Under the pieces are notes generated by a model. That model did not search any database. It was given only the letters and a program-made list of their open reading frames with translations, and had not been told where the DNA came from. Shown here piece by piece: positions 53,169-62,342 of a stretch of 64,000 nt of DNA; positions within the stretch are counted from its first letter, which is position 1; each line of letters starts with the position of its first letter. The stretch comes from Pseudomonas capeferrum (lineage in GTDB: Bacteria; Pseudomonadota; Gammaproteobacteria; Pseudomonadales; Pseudomonadaceae). Location of the stretch: assembly GCF_013523055.1 (NCBI RefSeq), contig NZ_JAAMQM010000004.1, positions 124,001 to 188,000 on the forward strand, written 5' to 3'. The translations under genes were made by a program, and so were the position numbers.

Positions 53169-53244
53169 GGGTCGTTAGCTCAGTTGGTAGAGCAGTTGGC
53201 TTTTAACCAATTGGTCGTAGGTTCGAATCCTACACGACCCACCA
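53169..53244 (+). tRNA. tRNA-Lys (UUU)
   Basis: 76 nt with encoded CCA. It begins GGGTCGTTAGCTCAG, has anticodon loop CTTTTAA (TTT) and ends CGACCCACCA. It is the lone tRNA downstream of queC, the same locus that serves as integration site for pKLC102/PAPI-type elements in P. aeruginosa. Confidence 0.98.
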
Positions 53245-53353
53245 AATATGATCGGAGTGTGAGTCTAGAACGGGTATTTTTGATAGTGCCTTCGTACTGG
53301 GTTTGCAGCCGTTTGTGGCGAACATTAGATCCGTTTGCCATGATGTCAATATG

Positions 53354-53390
53354 AAAAAGCCCGCCTTCTGTTGCAGAAGGCGGGCTTTTT
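53354..53390. terminator. Bidirectional terminator after tRNA-Lys
   Basis: GCCCGCCTTCTG and CAGAAGGCGGGC form a 12-bp stem with a TTG loop, flanked by A5 on the left and T5 on the right. Confidence 0.92.
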
Positions 53391-53498
53391 CATCTCTTGG
53401 ATCCCATTCTGACGGCCGGGTTCGGGGGCATCCTGCTGCTCATCCTCAGCAAACATGGCCGTACCATCAAGGTGTTACGAGAGGTCTTTCCCGCTGGC

Positions 53499-53690
53499 TT
53501 AGCGCTCTAATGGCCCCTGATACAGAAGCTTGAACTGCTGTCTGGACATGGAAGCCCTGTGCCATATGTTTTCCAGGAGCTGCTGGCGACGGGACGTATT
53601 TAGCAGGTCTTGGCTGCGTGCCGGGGCAACATAGCCCGTCGAAGACAGTTGTTCCTTGGTCGGACGCTTTCTTATGAGCCATGAAAGCAT
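53499..53690 (-). pseudogene. Remnant of an integrative-element MobH-type relaxase (N-terminus only)
   Basis: About 63 codons that read MLSWLIRKRPTKEQL, then a short linker, then SQDLLNTSRRQQLLENIWHRASMSR, then QQFKLLYQGPLER and a stop. The latter half closely resembles the start of the TraI_2/MobH relaxases of PFGI-1/pKLC102-class integrating elements (pattern L..PRRQ.LL..IWQRTS.SR..F..LY..PLERYAELVQ). The frame breaks exactly where PLERYAELV should continue, and no HD domain follows. It lies 250 bp from tRNA-Lys. I interpret it as the scar of a lost or decayed integrative element. Recognised from memory of the family, not a search. Confidence 0.68.
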
Positions 53691-53971
53691 GGGTTGCTCC
53701 ACGAATTGGTCATGGAGCGGGCTTTTCCGCTAAAGGCGGAGTGACATCAAGAGAAAAGCAACACCGGGATCGGATGATATTTCTGGGTGATGTGCCGTTA
53801 TCGGCCTGGAAATTGGATGCTGAGCAGAGCAAGACATCACCCCGGCAGCCTGCGAGAGCTACGCTTTCGCAGGGTAATTTTTATTTTATCTGTATCGGGT
53901 GTTGGCCTGCCGCCCAAGGCAGGCCAGCAGGCTGCAGGTATGGATACGGGCGTTGGTACGATGGCGCGAGG

Positions 53972-55009
53972 CTACTGCGCCGCCCAGGCAATGAAGCGTT
54001 GTTCCAGCGCCTCGCCATAGTCGGCCCAGAAGACCGTGTCGTTCTGCACCTGCTGGGCGATTCGCGCTGGGGTATTGGGCAGGTTGGCCGCGATCGAAGG
54101 ATCCAGTAGCGGGATTGCCGCGAGCGTCGCCGGCCCGTAGGCGATTGCTTGGGCAAAGTGCTGTTGTTGCGCTGTGGCGAGGGTGAACTGGATGAATTTG
54201 TGGGCTTGGTCCAGATGCTTGGAGCCCTTGGGGATGGCCCAGGCATCGAAGTCATAGATGCCACCGTTCCAGACCACACGCAAGTTGCTGTCTTTCTGCG
54301 CGGCGATGATTCGCCCGCTGTAACCCGCACTCATGACCACATCACCGGAGGCCAGATACTGCGCTGGCTGCGCGCCGGCTTCCCACCACTGGATCGATGG
54401 CTTGATCTGATCAAGCTTGGCGAACGCGCGGTCTTGTCCGGCCTGGGAGGCAAGTACCTTGTACACGTCCGCTGGCGCTACGCCGTCGGCCATAAGGGCA
54501 AATTCGAGGCTGAACTTGGCCGACTTACGCAGGCCACGCTTGCCCGGATATTTCTTCAGATCCCAGAAGTCCACCCACCCGGTTGGCGCGGTGGCGAGCT
54601 TGTCGGCGTTGTAGGCCAGGATCGTCGACCAGATGAAGAAACCCACCCCGCAGGGGTGGATAGCGCCTTTGAGATACTGTTCCGGCGCGCCAAGCAGATC
54701 CGGCGGTAGAGGTTCGAACAGGCCCTCTTCACAGCCGCGTGACAGCTCCGGCAGTTCGACCTCTACTACGTCCCAGTTGACGCTGTGGGTGTCGACCATG
54801 ACCTTGAGCTTGGCCATTTCGCCGTTGTATTCGCCGGCAATGATCTTGCCGCCCCCTTGCGCCTCCCAGGGCTTATAGAACGCCTGAGCTTGCGCTACCT
54901 TGTTGGTCCCGCCAAACGAGATGACTGTCAAACCATCGTCTGCCCACGTACTCGGAACGGCCAATGCGGCCAATGCGACTGTCAAAGCCTTGCCAATAGT
55001 GTGCATCAT
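53972..55009 (-). CDS. ABC transporter substrate-binding protein (PotD/type-II periplasmic family), orphan
   Basis: A 345-residue exported protein: signal peptide to ~residue 23 (PSTWA), then a two-lobed SBP of the spermidine/putrescine/iron-type family, with AYNADKLATAPTGWVDFWDLKKYPGKRGL and VMSAGYSGRI segments. No permease or ATPase is adjacent, so its transporter is elsewhere or it acts as a sensor. It is transcribed in the same direction as the dehydrogenase gene 102 bp upstream. The ligand is unknown; the PotD-like features suggest a polyamine or amino acid derivative. Confidence 0.85.
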   Translation of the reverse strand: MMHTIGKALTVALAALAVPSTWADDGLTVISFGGTNKVAQAQAFYKPWEAQGGGKIIAGEYNGEMAKLKVMVDTHSVNWDVVEVELPELSRGCEEGLFEPLPPDLLGAPEQYLKGAIHPCGVGFFIWSTILAYNADKLATAPTGWVDFWDLKKYPGKRGLRKSAKFSLEFALMADGVAPADVYKVLASQAGQDRAFAKLDQIKPSIQWWEAGAQPAQYLASGDVVMSAGYSGRIIAAQKDSNLRVVWNGGIYDFDAWAIPKGSKHLDQAHKFIQFTLATAQQQHFAQAIAYGPATLAAIPLLDPSIAANLPNTPARIAQQVQNDTVFWADYGEALEQRFIAWAAQ

Positions 55010-55111
55010 GACGCTCCTGCTGGTGTTGTATATCCGCGCGCCCGAGCAGCGCGCGGGAAAAGGGGGCGGTATACGGAAGCTGCCGGTTCTAGCGACCGGC
55101 GTCGGCGCAGG

Positions 55112-56221
55112 TCAGTCGACGACGGTGTCGGTCCAGTCGATCTGCAGTTCGCCGTAGGTCTTGATCAGCTCAAGCATGTGATTCGGGTCGAACAACAACT
55201 CTGAAGGCACCACGCCGCTGAGAGGACTCGTCAGGCCCGCGAGCATCTGCGCCTGGACCGCAGCGCATAGGCCGGTCATCCGGCTCATGGCTTCCTCACC
55301 CCAGCTTTGTGGGCCGCGGATCGTATAGCGGCGCACGACGGTATTGCCGTTGAGCGGCCCGCTGGCTTCAAAGACCGCCGCTGAGTGCTCTGGCCATCCA
55401 AACTGATGCCGTCCGCCCTGTTGAGCCCATATTTGTGCTTTGGTCTGTTCAATGGTGTCGGCTTCGAGCAGGCCGTAGCTGTTGAGGATGCGAAACTCTT
55501 CCATCAATTCGCGCTGCCAGGTGCCACGCACGGAGCAATAGCGAAGCGAAGGAAAACTTCGGGGCAGATCGGTCACTTCCGGGTGAGGAACGAAATACAC
55601 CCGCTGCTCGCCAATAGCTCCACCGAAATCGACCAATCGTGAACCTTCCATGAAGCCAGCGGGGCGCCACCGCCCGTTGAGGAAGTAACCTCGCTCAGGG
55701 CAGTGGTTGGCCAATTCCCATGTGATGGTGTCTAGTCCTCCGCGCGTAGGTGCAGGGCTGCGGAAAGACACCCAGTAGATATGATATTCGTGCAGCTCGC
55801 CGAAGGCCCTTGACGCATGCTGCGCCAGAATATTTGCCAATCCGGGTGACAAACCCAGGCCGGCCACTGCGATCACGCCGTTTTGCCTGGCGCGGTGATC
55901 ATTGCTGCCATCATCATGAGCAGAGATCAGGTTGGCGTAGCGTGCGTTGGCCTGCATGGCCAGGTCGAATACAGCCTGGCTACCGAAGCTGGTGCAGTCC
56001 ATGACCAGGTCCGCCCCTCGGGCAGCCTGGGCCAGTGCAGCCGGGTCTGCGGCGTTCGGGACCTGTGACAGCCCTGGCCGGCTGATGGCCGCTACTAGGT
56101 CACATGCCCGTTGCTCGTTGAGGTCGGCAATCAGTAGTTGTTCGACATCCTTCGCCACAGCCAGACCTCTTGATACCCACTGTCCGACTTGGCCGGCGCC
56201 ACCTATGACGAGAATTTTCAT
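55112..56221 (-). CDS. Saccharopine dehydrogenase-like NAD(P)-dependent oxidoreductase
   Basis: A 369-residue protein with an N-terminal Rossmann fold (MKILVIGGAGQVGQW; second block LLIADLNE) and a saccharopine-dehydrogenase-type C-terminal domain (GLGLSPGLANILAQ; WSFRSPAP-like region). I chose ATG 56221 with AGAGGAAC upstream. The family includes lysine, spermidine and carboxynorspermidine dehydrogenases; the substrate here is not determined. The gene is divergent from a PucR-family regulator 318 bp away and lies upstream of the orphan SBP gene. Confidence 0.85.
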   Translation of the reverse strand: MKILVIGGAGQVGQWVSRGLAVAKDVEQLLIADLNEQRACDLVAAISRPGLSQVPNAADPAALAQAARGADLVMDCTSFGSQAVFDLAMQANARYANLISAHDDGSNDHRARQNGVIAVAGLGLSPGLANILAQHASRAFGELHEYHIYWVSFRSPAPTRGGLDTITWELANHCPERGYFLNGRWRPAGFMEGSRLVDFGGAIGEQRVYFVPHPEVTDLPRSFPSLRYCSVRGTWQRELMEEFRILNSYGLLEADTIEQTKAQIWAQQGGRHQFGWPEHSAAVFEASGPLNGNTVVRRYTIRGPQSWGEEAMSRMTGLCAAVQAQMLAGLTSPLSGVVPSELLFDPNHMLELIKTYGELQIDWTDTVVD

Positions 56222-56539
56222 ATGTTCCTCTTGTTGGTCAGTGTCGTTGTGCAAGGTGGTCAACACCCTTCGGTCCTCCTTCAAAGCGTCCAGCAGCCTG
56301 CGCAGGTTGACGCTGAGGGGATGTTCACCACTCACGGCACCTTGAACAATTCGGTGATCGTAATAATTGGATCATGAGCATTGGACGATGGTACAAACGC
56401 CGCTGCAGCCGCGGTTTTACCGCCGTAGGTGTCCGAATCGATTGGGCAAGTGTTTGATCGTAAGATGAGCGCTTATGGCTATTTTCAGGCATGACAATGC
56501 CTTTGGTTCTTCCACCAGACTTCCTGGAGTAGCGCGCCA
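56222..56539. other. 318-bp divergent control region
   Basis: It lies between the dehydrogenase (minus) and PucR-family regulator (plus) and should hold both promoters. GGAG at 56526-56529 serves the regulator. The middle (56340-56380) is AT-rich. I see no terminator or clear palindromic operator. Confidence 0.5.
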
Positions 56540-58030
56540 ATGTCCTTGCGCATCAATGATCTTCTGCGTGCTCCACAGCTGTGCACTCGATTGGTGAGTG
56601 GCGGGGCAGGCTGCGATAACGTCATCGGCTGGGCGCACGTCTGCGAACTCGCGGACCCGGCAAAGTGGTTAAGCGCAAGGGATCTGTTGATGACCATCGG
56701 GATCGGCATCCCTTTGGACTACCAAGCACAGTTTGAATACGTGCAGCGCCTTTCAGATGCGGGTTTGGCCGGAATCGTGATTGGCGAAAACCCGCATGCG
56801 CCGACGGAACTGAGTGGTGTCTTCGATAGTTCGGAGCGATTCGGCTTCCCGGTCTTGATGACTGCGTATGGAGTGCCCTTTACAGCGATTGCCAAGGCGA
56901 TAGCGCAAGAGGGCCAGCATCGCGATTTCGAGCGTCGTCAACGCATGGCCAGGATCTACGAGAGCGCTCGGGCCAACCTGCTGGGGCTCGCTCTGCCTCA
57001 GTTGCTCGAGCGCCTGGAGCAAGACGTGGATGCCTCTTTATGGGTGGTCGACTCCATGACGGTTGAGCCGTGGGTCAAAGGGTTGCCGTCTCTGCCGCTC
57101 TCCTGCCAACCTTCCGTGGCGAGATTGCCGCCCAGGCCCCACTGCGGTACGGACACTGTCCACAAAGTGCGAGTGGTTGACGATACCTTCTGGGTCGCAG
57201 GTATCCCTGAGCATGACGACTGCATACTGGTCTGCCGCACCTCTTCGCCGTGCGACTACCTCGTACTGCAGCATATCGTTGCGGTGCTCGGGCTCGAAAT
57301 ATCAAGGCTGCACGTCGCTCATGAGCGAAGGATGAAGGTTGGCAGGGAGTTGCTCGAAGGCTTGCTCCGACAGGAGCTGACGGCGTCCCGACTCGAAGAG
57401 GCGCTTGAAGCACTGGCGATGCGGCTCGACAACGCAGTGTTGGCGGTGACTCGACTTGAGCATGCATCGCTGGCCCTGTTCCACTCTACGGTGCGACGGC
57501 AGGTTGTGCCTGTCGCAAGTGTCACCATAGGCGAGGAGCTGTTACTGCTCTTGAACCTCGACCACGCCTGTAAAATTCAGACCTGCCTCGGCTCTGCGCT
57601 CGGTGTAAGCGGCATCATTCATACGCCAGGCAGGGCAGCAGAAGCGTTAAGGGAGTCAAGATTGGCGCTTGCACACACCGATGGCGAGCGCCCCATCGTC
57701 AGCTACGGACTGATCTCAGGCGGCTCGCCATGGTTGCCTCAGAGCGTGGAAAGCGCTACCAGGACCTATCAGCAGGTACTGGGCAAGGTCTGCGCGTACG
57801 ATGAACAGCAAGGACGGGTGTTGTTACACACCTTGAACGTATTCCTGAGCAACAACCGGTCCTGGCTCAAATCCGCCAAGTTGCTGCATATTCATAAGCA
57901 GACACTGGTGTACCGAATCAAGAAAATAGAAGAACTGACAGGGCGCTCGCTAAGTGATACCGAGGATGTGTCCGTCCTGTGGCTCGCGCTCAAGGCATCC
58001 TCGATGTGCGGTTCTGAATGGCCAGCCTGA
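56540..58030 (+). CDS. PucR-family transcriptional regulator
   Basis: A 496-residue regulator with an N-terminal PucR ligand-sensing domain (residues ~5-125, motifs VIGWAHVCELADPAKWLSARDLLMT and GIVIGENPH) and a C-terminal PucR-type HTH (~430-480: VFLSNNRSWLKSAKLLHIHKQTLVYRIKKIEELTGRSL). Such proteins typically activate a divergent catabolic gene in response to a purine, amino acid or polyamine. It probably controls the divergent dehydrogenase and SBP genes. The inducer is not known. Confidence 0.9.
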   Translation: MSLRINDLLRAPQLCTRLVSGGAGCDNVIGWAHVCELADPAKWLSARDLLMTIGIGIPLDYQAQFEYVQRLSDAGLAGIVIGENPHAPTELSGVFDSSERFGFPVLMTAYGVPFTAIAKAIAQEGQHRDFERRQRMARIYESARANLLGLALPQLLERLEQDVDASLWVVDSMTVEPWVKGLPSLPLSCQPSVARLPPRPHCGTDTVHKVRVVDDTFWVAGIPEHDDCILVCRTSSPCDYLVLQHIVAVLGLEISRLHVAHERRMKVGRELLEGLLRQELTASRLEEALEALAMRLDNAVLAVTRLEHASLALFHSTVRRQVVPVASVTIGEELLLLLNLDHACKIQTCLGSALGVSGIIHTPGRAAEALRESRLALAHTDGERPIVSYGLISGGSPWLPQSVESATRTYQQVLGKVCAYDEQQGRVLLHTLNVFLSNNRSWLKSAKLLHIHKQTLVYRIKKIEELTGRSLSDTEDVSVLWLALKASSMCGSEWPA

Positions 58031-58592
58031 TCAGGTCGCAGACTTCAAGATGTCTCGAAAGTTGGAAGGACCACCACACAGGCATCTGGGCACTTTTGCC
58101 AGCCAGGGATGTGAATGAAGTATTCCCCTCTGTGTCGGCCGGCGCCGGCAATTGGTACGGGCACTGCTGTGCCTTGGTCTGGTCGAGTTGGAGGGTGTCG
58201 AAGCTCACGTTTACTGCAGGTACTCCACAGAGCGCTATGACGACGTAACCACGTAGATATGAGTCTCGATGCGTGCCAACGACAGAACACCGTTGTTGCC
58301 CTCGTCAGCGCCTCCCACGGACCTGACCATTCCCGGGCGACGATGATCAAAGGCAGTGCAAACAAACCTGTGTCTGCAATCATCCCCAAATTTCGTTGTT
58401 AAATTCACCCGACAAGGAGTTAGGTAGTACTCAGGTAGTCACTGGTGCAGGGCTTTGGGCTTGGTCTCGTAGTTTTTCTGAATCACCGGGGTAAGGCCTA
58501 CACCTGTGCTTCGTTGCTATGAAAAGCATTTTTAAATCCGAATTTTCGCGTAAATTTAAGCCGTTTTCCTGCAGCAATCACTGACCATTCCG
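58031..58592. other. 562-bp stretch without a recognised gene
   Basis: It separates the PucR regulator from a glycosyltransferase pseudogene and is AT-rich at 58380-58420 and 58520-58570. A 114-codon minus-strand frame (58045-58389) has a hydrophobic start but no recognised family and no good ribosome-binding site. Possible decayed coding DNA, but I cannot identify it. Confidence 0.45.
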
Positions 58593-59453
58593 ATGCAGGC
58601 TCCTGCTTCAAAGCACAGAGAAAGGCATCCAGTCGCGATGACTAAAGGAGCCATTCAGCCGCAGCCCACGCTAGCCGAACTGTCACTCTTGGTGTCAATA
58701 ATCGCGCCTTGCTACAACGCCGAGAAATATCTCGGAGCTGCCTTGCAAAGTATTTTTGCCCAGGACTACCCGAATTATGAGGTCATCATCGTCGATGACG
58801 GCTCGACCGACCGCAGCGTGGAAATGCTCGGGGCGCTGCAGAAAACCCACGATTTACAGCTGCTGACCCAGGCGAATCAAGGTGTCAGCGCTGCGCTCAA
58901 TACTGGACTGTAATATGCCAAGGGTGTTTACGTGGCGACGCACGATCTGGACGACATCATGCTGCCCCACTCCATCAGTGTCAGGGCGCGTTACCTTGAT
59001 GAGCACCCGCGAGTGGGTTGTGTCGGCGCCTGATCACCTACATGGATTACGAGGCCGCGATGTCAAGACGCAGCGGCGCAGTGAAATCCACACTCACACC
59101 TTCGATGAGATTCTTGCCGGCGGTGTAGTGATCGGTGCGCCAGGCGCACTGTACCGCAGGAAGCCCTGCGCGCGGCCGGCTTGTACGATCCTGCAATCAA
59201 GGTGCAGGATTTTCCGATGACGCTGCGTATCGCCAACCAGGGCTACCAGATCCACGAGTTGCCGGTGTGCGTGACGCGTTACCGCGGCAACCCCTGCAAG
59301 TTCATTCGCTGGCGCTTCGAAGAGGAGGTGCGCGAACTGCTGCTCGAGGCCGCTTGGTGGGACTGGTTGATCGAGGAGGTCAAAGCGGTTTCCAGGCAGC
59401 TGTGCAGTTGCGACCTGAAAGGTTTCGTCGCCTACCTCAAGACGCGCAGGTAG
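58593..59453 (+). pseudogene. Family 2 glycosyltransferase pseudogene
   Basis: The 5' part encodes a GT-A fold start (VSIIAPCYNAEKYL, DYPNYEVIIVDDGSTDRS), then a TAA at 58911-58913. The same frame continues YAKGVYVATHDLDDIMLPHSISVR with the Asp-x-Asp region before TGA at 59031. The product then resumes in other frames: EIHTHTFDEILAGGVVIGAPGALYRR, and after another shift YDPAIKVQDFPMTLRIANQGYQIHELPV to 59453. Reading the whole needs one nonsense repair and at least three single-base insertions (near 59029, 59053 and 59160). All three apparent losses are in G or C runs. It makes no functional enzyme as read. Confidence 0.88.
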
Positions 59454-59539
59454 CGCCCGACAGTGGTACCCTTGACGTCCCGCGCGGATTCGCTGTGGCG
59501 GCTGCGCTTCACCTTCTATGGACAGCAATCGGTTTATTC

Positions 59540-61042
59540 ATGAAGAAATCAGTCGGCATTCTCTGCGGCCTGGCCATCGCCATCGCCGTGGTTACCACCG
59601 CGGGTGCCTGGTACACCGGCAAGCAGTTGCCTCGCGAACTCGACAATTCGATCGCCCGGGCCAACCAGGAACTCGTCAAGGCCCTGGCAGGCGTGGGCGG
59701 CAGCGCAACGATCGAACTGACCTCCCTTGATCGGCACCTGTTCACCAGCACCGCCCACTACCGCATCAAGGTCAAGGATGTGCAGGCGGGTGAGTTGCCG
59801 GTGAGTTTCGAGTTGGCTGCGGTCGACAAGATCGAGCACGGCCCGTTTCCATGGTCCCGGGTCAAGTCGCTCAAGCTGATGCCGGTCATGGCAGCCGGCA
59901 ATGCCCGGTTAGAGAGGACAGAGGCGACCGCTTCCTGGTTCGCCGCCGCCAACGAACAGTCGCCGCTGCGGGTGCATTCGAGTCTAGGGTATGACGGTGG
60001 GGTGACGAGCGAACTCGAGCTGCTGCCATTGAAAGTGGACGAGGCTAATGGCAACAAGGTGGATTTCACCGGTCTACGTCTGCGAGTGAACGGTGACCGC
60101 GACGGCAAGGCGGTGAAGATCGAGGGCGAAGCCGGAAGGCTGGACTTGACCCTGATCGATCAGATGCAGCTGCCTGTGACGCTGCAGTTCAACGGCCTGA
60201 CTATCGGTGGCGACCTGTCACGCACCGACCATGACAGTCTCTATGTGGGCTCGCTCGACCTGGGCCTGGCCGAAGCTCGGATCACGCAGGGCCACCAGCA
60301 GAAGCTGCTGCTGATCAAGGGCCTGGAACAAAACAATCTTTACGGTGCCGACGGCGACAAGATGCATGGCCGCCTGGAATACAAGATTGGCGACATCACC
60401 TACGACAACCGCCCGGTCGGTTCCGGCCACATGCTCTTCACCTTCAAGGACGTGGACATGACGGCCCTGCAGTCGCTCAACGACTGGTACCAGACGCGCC
60501 TGCCTGAGTTCCGCGAAGCCGCCGCTGCGGGCCAGGTGTTGCCGAACATCGACATGGGTCCCGAGGAAAGGGCCAAGGTCCAGGCCGACCTGCAGAAAAT
60601 GCTCGCGGCCAAGCCACAGGTCGCTCTTGAGGATCTCTCGTTCAAGACGGCCAAGGGCACCAGCCGTTTCAACCTGATCGTCGACCTCGGCAACCCGGCT
60701 TCCCTGGATCTGCCAGCCGATCAATTGACCCGCCAGATCATCGCTCGATTGCAGGCGAAGCTTTCGTTGTCCAAGCCCATGATCGGCGATCTCGCCACTT
60801 TGCAGGCTTTCCTGCAAGGCCAAACCGACGCCCAGGCGATCGCCCGGCAATCCGGCCAGGCGGGCGAGATGGTCGGCATGATGGCCGTGCAGAGCGGAAT
60901 GGCGAGAGTAGAGGGCGATGATGTGAAGGCCGATCTGCACTATGCCGACGGCCAGGTCGACTTCAACGGCAAAAAGATGTCGGTCGAAGAATTCGCACTG
61001 TTCCTCAACACCCAGATGGCTGGCGTGGTTCCGCGCGGCTGA
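59540..61042 (+). CDS. DUF945 (YdgA-like) family protein
   Basis: A 500-residue protein with one N-terminal membrane anchor (MKKSVGILCGLAIAIAVVTTAGAWY) and a large periplasmic DUF945 region, rich in beta-type repeats and ending EFALFLNTQMAGVVPRG. YdgA of E. coli is a periplasmic/membrane-associated protein of unknown function, reported to dimerise. The protein is longer than the open frame beginning inside the pseudogene suggests; I chose ATG 59540 to give the signal anchor. The ribosome-binding site is weak. Confidence 0.85.
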   Translation: MKKSVGILCGLAIAIAVVTTAGAWYTGKQLPRELDNSIARANQELVKALAGVGGSATIELTSLDRHLFTSTAHYRIKVKDVQAGELPVSFELAAVDKIEHGPFPWSRVKSLKLMPVMAAGNARLERTEATASWFAAANEQSPLRVHSSLGYDGGVTSELELLPLKVDEANGNKVDFTGLRLRVNGDRDGKAVKIEGEAGRLDLTLIDQMQLPVTLQFNGLTIGGDLSRTDHDSLYVGSLDLGLAEARITQGHQQKLLLIKGLEQNNLYGADGDKMHGRLEYKIGDITYDNRPVGSGHMLFTFKDVDMTALQSLNDWYQTRLPEFREAAAAGQVLPNIDMGPEERAKVQADLQKMLAAKPQVALEDLSFKTAKGTSRFNLIVDLGNPASLDLPADQLTRQIIARLQAKLSLSKPMIGDLATLQAFLQGQTDAQAIARQSGQAGEMVGMMAVQSGMARVEGDDVKADLHYADGQVDFNGKKMSVEEFALFLNTQMAGVVPRG

Positions 61043-61283
61043 TACCTTTCGCAGGCCCGGCCGATACCCAGTCGGCGCGGGCCCTGCGGCGCAAAAAACG
61101 CTTTTGAATTGAAGCGATTGTCTGTAGCCTTCGGCGTCCGACAATAATCCGTGCCCGCAATGGGACCGCGATTGCAAGGCTGGTGCCCGTTCAGCCCTTG
61201 CCATCCGGTGCCTCTAGCCGATTTGCCAGGGTTCGGTGATACACTCGATTCGACGCGCATGCGCGCCCGCAGGTCCAGCGATC

Positions 61284-62342
61284 ATGACCCAGATTTCCGA
61301 ACGCCTGTTGGTTCAAGCACACCTTGACGCCAAGCAGCCCAATCCGCTGACAGTCGAGCAGGAGGCCGAATACTGTGCGGCCATCGCTGCGGAGCTCAAG
61401 GCCCAGAACGCTGTTCTGGTCGCCCATTTCTATTGTGATCCGGTCATCCAGGCCCTGGCCGAGGAGACGGGCGGTTGCGTATCCGACTCCCTCGAGATGG
61501 CCCGCTTCGGCAAGAACCATCCGGCCAGCACGGTGCTGGTGGCCGGTGTGCGCTTCATGGGCGAGACGGCGAAGATTCTCACTCCTGAAAAACGCATCCT
61601 GATGCCGACCCTGGAGGCGACCTGCTCGCTCGACCTGGGCTGCCCGGTCGAGGAGTTCTCGGCGTTCTGCGACAAGCACCCCGAGCGGACCGTGGTGGTG
61701 TATGCCAACACCTCCGCTGCGGTCAAGGCGCGCGCCGATTGGGTCGTGACCTCCAGCTGCGCCCTCGAGATCGTCGAGAGCCTGATGGACAACGGCGAGA
61801 CCATCATCTGGGGACCGGACCAGCATCTGGGACGCTACATCCAGAAGCGTACCGGTGCCGACATGCTGATGTGGGACGGTGCCTGTATCGTTCACGAAGA
61901 ATTCAAGTCGCGGCAGTTGGCCGACATGAAGGCGTTGTACCCTGACGCGGCGATCCTGGTCCATCCCGAGTCCCCCGAGTCGGTCATCGAGCTGGCCGAT
62001 GCGGTGGGCTCCACCAGCCAGTTGATCGCCGCTGCGCAGACCATGCCGAACAAGACCTTCATCGTTGCGACCGACCGCGGCATCTTCTACAAGATGCAGC
62101 AGCTGTGCCCGGACAAGGTCTTCGTCGAAGCGCCTACCGCCGGTAACGGCGCGGCATGCCGCAGCTGCGCGCATTGCCCATGGATGGCCATGAACACGCT
62201 CGAGCGTACCCTGGATTGCCTGCGCAAGGGCAGCAACGAGATCTTCGTCGAGCCAGCGCTGATCCCGCGGGCCATCAAGCCGCTGAAACGGATGCTCGAC
62301 TTCACCCAGGCGGCGCGCATGAAGCTGTCGGGCAACGCCTGA
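61284..62342 (+). CDS. nadA: Quinolinate synthase NadA
   Basis: Condenses iminoaspartate with dihydroxyacetone phosphate to form quinolinate in NAD synthesis. The 352-residue protein has the three cluster cysteines of the 4Fe-4S site ([11 protein letters not shown] region, TSSCALEI, and CRSCAHCPW), with the [21 protein letters not shown] and GNGAACRSC segments typical of the family. I chose ATG 61284 ([11 protein letters not shown]). Confidence 0.97.

Follow-up and report, generated by a model that had tools for sequence, protein, structure and literature searches.

Remnant of a probable PFGI-1/pKLC102-class integrative and conjugative element at the queC-adjacent tRNA-Lys gene of Pseudomonas capeferrum

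The tRNA-Lys gene beside queC in the analysed stretch of Pseudomonas capeferrum DNA (64,000 nucleotides, hereafter the window) is followed by what is very probably a decayed integrative and conjugative element (ICE) of the PFGI-1/pKLC102 class, reduced by deletions. Four pieces, here called A to D, their order and the losses within the locus can be read directly from the sequence. An initial annotation of the same DNA had proposed the past insertion and decay of a large mobile element, and the proposal was supported by the four collinear pieces, by shuffle controls and by the occurrence of occupied and empty versions of the locus in related genomes. It had placed the scar at 53169–53971; a scar is present there, but its end was set wrongly, as the element sequence resumes at 58065–58504, beyond three accessory genes. 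The locus adds one more decayed ICE to a hotspot already on record; neither the element class nor the site is new, and a search of the open-access literature returned no description of the scar at 53169–58504. The features of the locus, with the evidence for each, were as follows.

53169–53244, plus strand: tRNA-Lys (TTT), directly after queC; its 3′ part, from 53193, is the attachment core
53245–53400, no strand: piece A, non-coding tRNA-side terminus of the putative lost element (blastn and shuffles)
53401–53496, no strand: 96 bp at the presumed A/B deletion junction (at shuffle level against all seven related elements)
53497–53804, minus strand: piece B, predicted relaxase N-terminus (frame 53499–53702) and upstream region (profile matches, alignments, shuffle control)
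53852–53874, no strand: hairpin-like repeat 3′ of the solute-binding-protein gene (similar copies elsewhere in the genus)
53972–55009, minus strand: putative cargo 1, periplasmic solute-binding protein, 345 aa (SBP_bac_8, PotD-like; family search)
55112–56221, minus strand: putative cargo 2, saccharopine-dehydrogenase-like protein, 369 aa (family search)
56540–58030, plus strand: putative cargo 3, PucR-family regulator, 496 aa (PmfR-like; family search)
58065–58453, minus strand: piece C, fragment of the TraG_N conjugation gene, ~130 codons in three frames (blastn identity, frame tracing)
58446–58504, minus strand: piece D, fragment of a conjugation gene that lies 0.8–1.1 kb further on in related elements (shuffle control, five of seven elements)
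58623–59318, plus strand: glycosyltransferase family 2 pseudogene with a broken frame, 59.5% aa identity to an intact 303-aa gene of genome G015
59286–59453, plus strand: C-terminal 55 codons of a hexapeptide acetyltransferase, 72.7% aa identity to residues 151–205 of 207 in G015
59540–62342, plus strand: right flank, DUF945-like gene and nadA, in an order shared with many fetched relatives, some of which have nadA alone

Pieces of an element between tRNA-Lys and nadA

Pieces A–D were located by blastn at loose settings against related elements, and each was compared with 200 dinucleotide shuffles of itself, the best score over seven elements being taken as the control. Two of the seven, pKLC102 (NC_019202) and pUM505 (NC_016138), come from P. 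aeruginosa; the other five came from genomes of the genus and are called here by their genome handles. A search of 298 genus genomes with 53245–53900 as the query gave some match in 41, including the window's own, many of them short alignments with a hairpin or with a repeat at ~53837–53887. Six genomes besides the window's own (G301, G008, G143, G240, G258 and G090) had matches at the tRNA-side terminus as well as at the relaxase start. All but G090 were fetched, and for four of these the sequence obtained covers just the two ends (~19 kb each). Pfam recognised an integrase and TraG_N in all five fetched elements, and each also contained a TIGR03760 relaxase, which in G258 appeared as two matches. 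All six plasmid matches were in Pseudomonas, and phage records gave no match. As a separate observation, the relaxase of G258 (C1:5119426–5120078, L070) is split into overlapping profile matches 1–73 and 67–218, a possible frameshift, so that this element may be starting to decay.

The minus-strand frame 53499–53702 within piece B is 67 codons long from a GTG and 63 codons long from an internal ATG at 53690. It matched Pfam TraI_2 (E 2.7e-9, 36.9 bits, gathering cut-off 23.9) and positions 2–46 of the 218 in NCBIfam TIGR03760 (E 3.5e-9), where its 36.6 bits fall below a cut-off of 161.4 set for the whole domain; the match to the MobH profile NF041494 was weak (E 0.0016). The frame ends in PLER followed by TAA, which replaces the Tyr or Phe codon of PLER[YF]AELV, and the Ala codon after it is still recognisable before the similarity ends; G008 has PLERFAELV, and the DNA of G301 has a Tyr codon at the position of the stop. 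On the evidence of its sequence, the fragment is the N-terminal part of a MobH/TraI_2 relaxase of the PFGI-1 class. The initial annotation had recognised it as a 63-codon minus-strand MobH N-terminus lying 255 bp past tRNA-Lys and stopping where the PLERYAELV block should continue. It was right about the place, strand, length and identity; the coordinates agree with the distance, the TAA falls at the Y with similarity gone one codon later, and the profile searches did return TraI_2 and TIGR03760.

Piece B as a whole scored 68–115 bits against all seven elements, compared with 35.4 bits for the best of its shuffles. Piece A, which contains a hairpin terminator (53351–53393), scored 57–93 bits against all seven, compared with at most 32.6 in shuffles, and its blastn identity was 73% to G301 and 69–78% to the six other elements including pKLC102. 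Piece C reached 179–225 bits and 67.8–72.2% DNA identity in six of the seven elements, against a shuffle maximum of 32.6; it can be traced only with two frame changes (frames −2, −1 and −3) and shows 16–26 gapped columns against five relatives, which among themselves show 0–13. The 59 bp of piece D gave 35–44 bits in five of the seven elements, against a shuffle maximum of 26.8.

In the related elements, A lies between the attachment site and the integrase gene, B covers the beginning of the relaxase gene and the region upstream of it, and C corresponds to the opening part of TraG_N, as annotated in pUM505. The A-B-C-D order and orientation were kept in all five fetched genome elements (G301, G240, G143, G258 and G008), piece D of G008 being found by tblastx and by a more permissive blastn. 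In pUM505, A, B and C matched by blastn and D by tblastx only, its blastn score being at chance level; in pKLC102, A and B matched, and no C was present in the 8.1 kb fetched. When the four pieces were queried in 20 fetched queC-to-nadA loci lacking such an element, 19 gave no match, and the twentieth (G009) gave a single 55-bp match to the hairpin. The extent of the scar can thus be read from collinearity with living elements, though only ~0.9 kb remains in four pieces. Because the pieces are just ~57–78% identical to known elements, a value that varies with piece and method, the exact parent would be an unsampled element.

Three stretches, 53401–53496, 53805–53971 and 58505–58634, stayed at shuffle level against the seven elements and hence are not claimed as element sequence, and no further element sequence was found to the right of piece D. 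The 96 bp between A and B had no match in the related elements, and none longer than 30 bp in other genomes of the genus sample; two short matches, one of 30 bp in G262 (53413–53442) and one of 28 bp in G056, lie in an apparent transporter frame (by eye) and were taken as chance. Neither Pfam nor NCBIfam gave a family for the short plus-strand frame that ends at 53511. The hairpin-like repeat at 53852–53874 is single in the window and has similar copies of ~40–50 bp in many genomes of the genus, sometimes two per genome, one of them (L036) just ahead of an apparent IS110-type transposase frame (by eye). Short matches at ~53837–53887 in many genomes were attributed to this repeated sequence and rejected as element sequence.

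Losses and the state of the site across the genus

Distances between the pieces were compared with those in the related elements. A and B, ~3.1–3.2 kb apart there, are separated by 96 bp in the window; C and D, 0.8–1.1 kb apart there, have nothing between them; and the 2.0–8.0 kb from B to C in six elements, which include the 3′ part of TraG_N, are represented by three other genes. The integrases of G301 and G008 gave no tblastn hit in 53245–61235 (best E 4.1), no DUF3742-type gene was found between the tRNA and nadA (best E 0.074), and there is no relaxase body beyond profile positions 2–46 of 218, so that the relaxase gene is not intact. A search of the window for another copy of the tRNA-Lys 3′ repeat found none with at least 36 of 52 identities, and the repeat shared no 12-mer with either strand of 53260–61300; direct repeats of at least 16 nt were absent from 53245–59540. 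Among the sequences compared, C and D were the only conjugation-gene matches between the tRNA and nadA.

By its relaxase, integrase, direct repeats and conjugation gene set, the locus is not a functional ICE of the PFGI-1/pKLC102 class. It has the properties of a remnant, namely the tRNA-Lys site beside queC, ordered pieces and inactivating lesions, the latter being the TAA and truncation in B, the two frame changes in C and the missing genes. Since the integrase, the relaxase body and the second attachment site are lost, what is left should no longer be capable of excision or transfer by itself.

Deletion is the presumed mechanism, and we infer the number and order of events as follows. A PFGI-1/pKLC102-class element would have inserted into the 3′ end of tRNA-Lys with its integrase-relaxase end towards the tRNA, as in living relatives, and would then have decayed through at least four deletions: (1) of the integrase and most of the relaxase (~3.1 kb), (2) of the interval with the DUF3742-type gene and the 3′ part of TraG_N, (3) of ~0.8–1.1 kb between C and D, and (4) of everything from D to beyond the right attachment repeat. 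The three genes between B and C may have been retained as cargo while the rest was lost. Points against the decayed-element reading are the absence of a right attachment repeat from the window, the modest identity of the pieces to known elements, the shortness of piece D with its chance-level blastn score in pUM505, and the unmatched 96 bp between A and B.

The gene preceding the tRNA is queC, which we take to be the one called exsB in older usage. According to its description (PMC2647930), PFGI-1 of P. fluorescens Pf-5 resides in the tRNA-Lys beside exsB and is bounded by 49-bp repeats, 45 bp of which are the 3′ end of the tRNA; the same description terms this tRNA-Lys a probable integration hotspot and notes putative integrase genes adjoining exsB also in P. 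putida KT2440 and others. Our sample gave a consistent picture. Near-empty sites, with ~0.1–0.2 kb from tRNA-Lys to nadA, were seen in G002, G005, G016, G023 and the queC copy of G008, and the same queC-tRNA-Lys...nadA interval was occupied by an element in G301, G240, G143 and G258. The left border in these four genomes consists of queC and tRNA-Lys, and the right border of nadA and a tRNA 3′-part copy, with a span from the tRNA to the far copy, taken from coordinates, of 84 kb in G240, 98 kb in G143, 130 kb in G301 and 138 kb in G258; the copies at the far ends of related elements gave alignments of 52–69 bp. The ~83-kb element of G008 lies at another tRNA-Lys, within an Asn-Pro-Lys tRNA cluster. 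The initial annotation had named, as an outcome that would speak against it, an identical sequence in all relatives with no trace of an element. The sequence was not common to all relatives: six of the 298 genomes besides the window's own match piece A and the relaxase start, and the five fetched have integrase, relaxase and TraG_N genes next to a tRNA-Lys and a far copy of the tRNA 3′ part, four of them at this locus. The tRNA-Lys beside queC was confirmed as a recurrent landing site whose empty, occupied and scarred states are visible in one genus.

Many fetched relatives carry a different block of ~5 kb between tRNA-Lys and DUF945 (L080 3214–7985; similar in L076, L082, L083, L081 and L085), with frames that by eye resemble a cation-efflux protein, a chemotaxis receptor and an amino-acid permease. 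The window has no trace of this block between the tRNA and nadA.

The three middle genes and the right-hand side

The initial annotation had regarded the accessory genes up to 59.5 kb as cargo or later arrivals, and this holds in part. For the three genes between B and C, the resumption of the scar beyond them adds a positional argument for cargo, which is not proof; the 58.6–59.5 kb stretch proved to be something else. There, a ~0.7-kb deletion fuses the glycosyltransferase pseudogene to the acetyltransferase tail, and G015 carries both genes intact, adjacent and beside the same tRNA-Lys (L060 10048–11632). To judge from these alignments, the two genes are a separate decayed pair related to that of G015. 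A family match of 59181–59453 to CatB-like chloramphenicol acetyltransferases does not mark a resistance gene, the stretch being the decayed hexapeptide acetyltransferase tail fused to the glycosyltransferase pseudogene.

The three middle genes are all open frames, and they differ in how widely relatives were found. For the dehydrogenase, no match came from 298 genomes of the genus at E 1e-60, from 299 of the phylum at 1e-40 or from plasmids at 1e-20, apart from the window's own genome, and distant relatives may lie beyond these thresholds; a pattern scan of GTDB contigs, limited in reach to close relatives, likewise gave none. Relatives of the solute-binding protein are numerous: among at least 80 loci the best segments were 65–71% identical, 76 of the best 80 named relatives are titled Pseudomonas, and the other two genes were absent from the flanks of these at least 80 loci at E 1e-10. 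Relatives of the PucR regulator, at 30–49% identity, occurred in six other genomes of 149. In two of four enlarged PucR stretches (L186–L189) a solute-binding-protein gene adjoins the PucR gene, so the pairing itself is not unique; the dehydrogenase was absent from all four (13–14 kb).

The interval from the relaxase start to the TraG_N end, in which the three genes would have been carried, varies in length, from 1.0 kb in pUM505 to 7.0 kb in G301; G240, G143 and G258 have 2.0–2.3 kb, and G008 has 3.5 kb. At a tblastx threshold of 1e-6, G240, G143 and G258 share 1.1–1.7 kb pairwise, G301 shares at most ~1.0 kb and G008 at most ~0.8 kb with any other element, and neither the window's interval nor the 4.6 kb fetched from pKLC102 shares anything with any element. 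A DUF3742-type gene recurs in the interval: it is annotated in pUM505, Pfam recognised it in G008 and, weakly, in G301, and tblastn detected it in the other three genome elements, those of G240, G143 and G258. The lengths and the sharing together suggest that extra DNA has been taken up here in some elements, not all.

We lean slightly towards the reading that the three middle genes came as cargo in this length-variable interval and were retained after the rest was lost, because the interval takes extra DNA in some elements and the genes sit between two element pieces. The abnormal right edge of the block and the lack of a known carrier call for caution, and both point to a less favoured but serious alternative, in which the scar is real and the solute-binding-protein, dehydrogenase and PucR genes are later arrivals that replaced part of the dead element. 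The block ends at 58030, abutting a mid-TraG_N fragment at 58065 where no normal gene boundary lies, and the DUF3742-type gene and the 3′ part of TraG_N are missing; no known element was found with the three genes, the dehydrogenase having no plasmid counterpart at the 1e-20 threshold; and G240, G143 and G258 share much of the interval, so that not every element offers it as a free site for cargo. Late arrival is in turn opposed by the position of the block, in an interval that holds extra, mostly unshared DNA in G301, G008 and pKLC102, by the absence of direct repeats of at least 16 nt across 53245–59540, and by the absence of a transposase or integrase among those frames that were given to family searches, a subset of all frames. 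Returning to the cargo reading, we tentatively suggest that the three genes might form a metabolic module from an unsampled pool, delivered by the element and outliving it, possibly for the uptake or use of a polyamine- or amino-acid-like compound. If they were cargo, a mobile element would have left a lasting metabolic addition.

Other origins and known elements

A single element is not the only conceivable source of the four pieces. It is improbable that A-B and C-D stem from two different elements inserted successively at the same tRNA: the locus is a hotspot with contents that differ among relatives, and the identity to relatives is unequal (57–64% for B, 70–74% for C), but a similar B/C difference is found between most other elements, and one element explains the order, orientation and spacing. 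The genome is a draft of 95 contigs, in which assembly or contamination could in principle join an element end to a contig; such an artefact is very improbable here, given that frameshifts and deletions have damaged the pieces and that the locus is internal to its contig, of which the window covers 124001–188000, and is bordered by the neighbours that relatives predict. The relaxase piece taken alone, covering 45 of 218 profile positions and scoring below the curated TIGR03760 cut-off, might even pass for ordinary chromosomal sequence or chance similarity that was never an element. The chance of this is negligible, since the four collinear pieces each exceed 200 shuffles (against at least five of the seven elements) and find no match in 19 of 20 element-free loci; the collinear elements and the shuffle control already refute it.

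The same genome contains a second PFGI-1-class relaxase (C33:253378–254031, L020), a full-length match of 298 bits to TIGR03760 in a 641-aa frame, and it is through this other locus that the window's own genome is counted among the 75 of 298 genus genomes with a TIGR03760 match above the cut-off. Its locus was considered as the source of the scar and rejected as a different lineage: it shares 49% aa identity with the fragment over 69 aa, and at the DNA level C alone matches, at 61%. No tRNA was present within the 34 kb fetched around it.

The preferred reading is therefore one decayed ICE at a known site. Decay of genomic islands is common, and the scar changes nothing in the understanding of such elements.

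Compared with PFGI-1 as described (PMC2647930), the locus has in common the tRNA-Lys next to exsB and an attachment site derived from the 3′ end of the tRNA, which in PFGI-1 is adjoined by the integrase; PFGI-1 differs in being a 115-kb element with an integrase and 49-bp repeats, whereas the window holds four pieces without an integrase or a second repeat. pKLC102 and pUM505 likewise begin with the terminal sequence at the attachment end, followed by the integrase and by mobH on the minus strand, with DUF3742 and TraG_N coming next in pUM505; unlike the remnant, they are typed as conjugative with the genes present, and their DNA identity to it is ~62–78% over the matching pieces. The closest counterparts in position are the elements of G301, G240, G143 and G258, which share with the window the chromosomal neighbours, the tRNA and the A-B-C-D order and differ from it in extending over 84–138 kb from the tRNA to a far attachment copy recognised by its 52–69-bp alignments.
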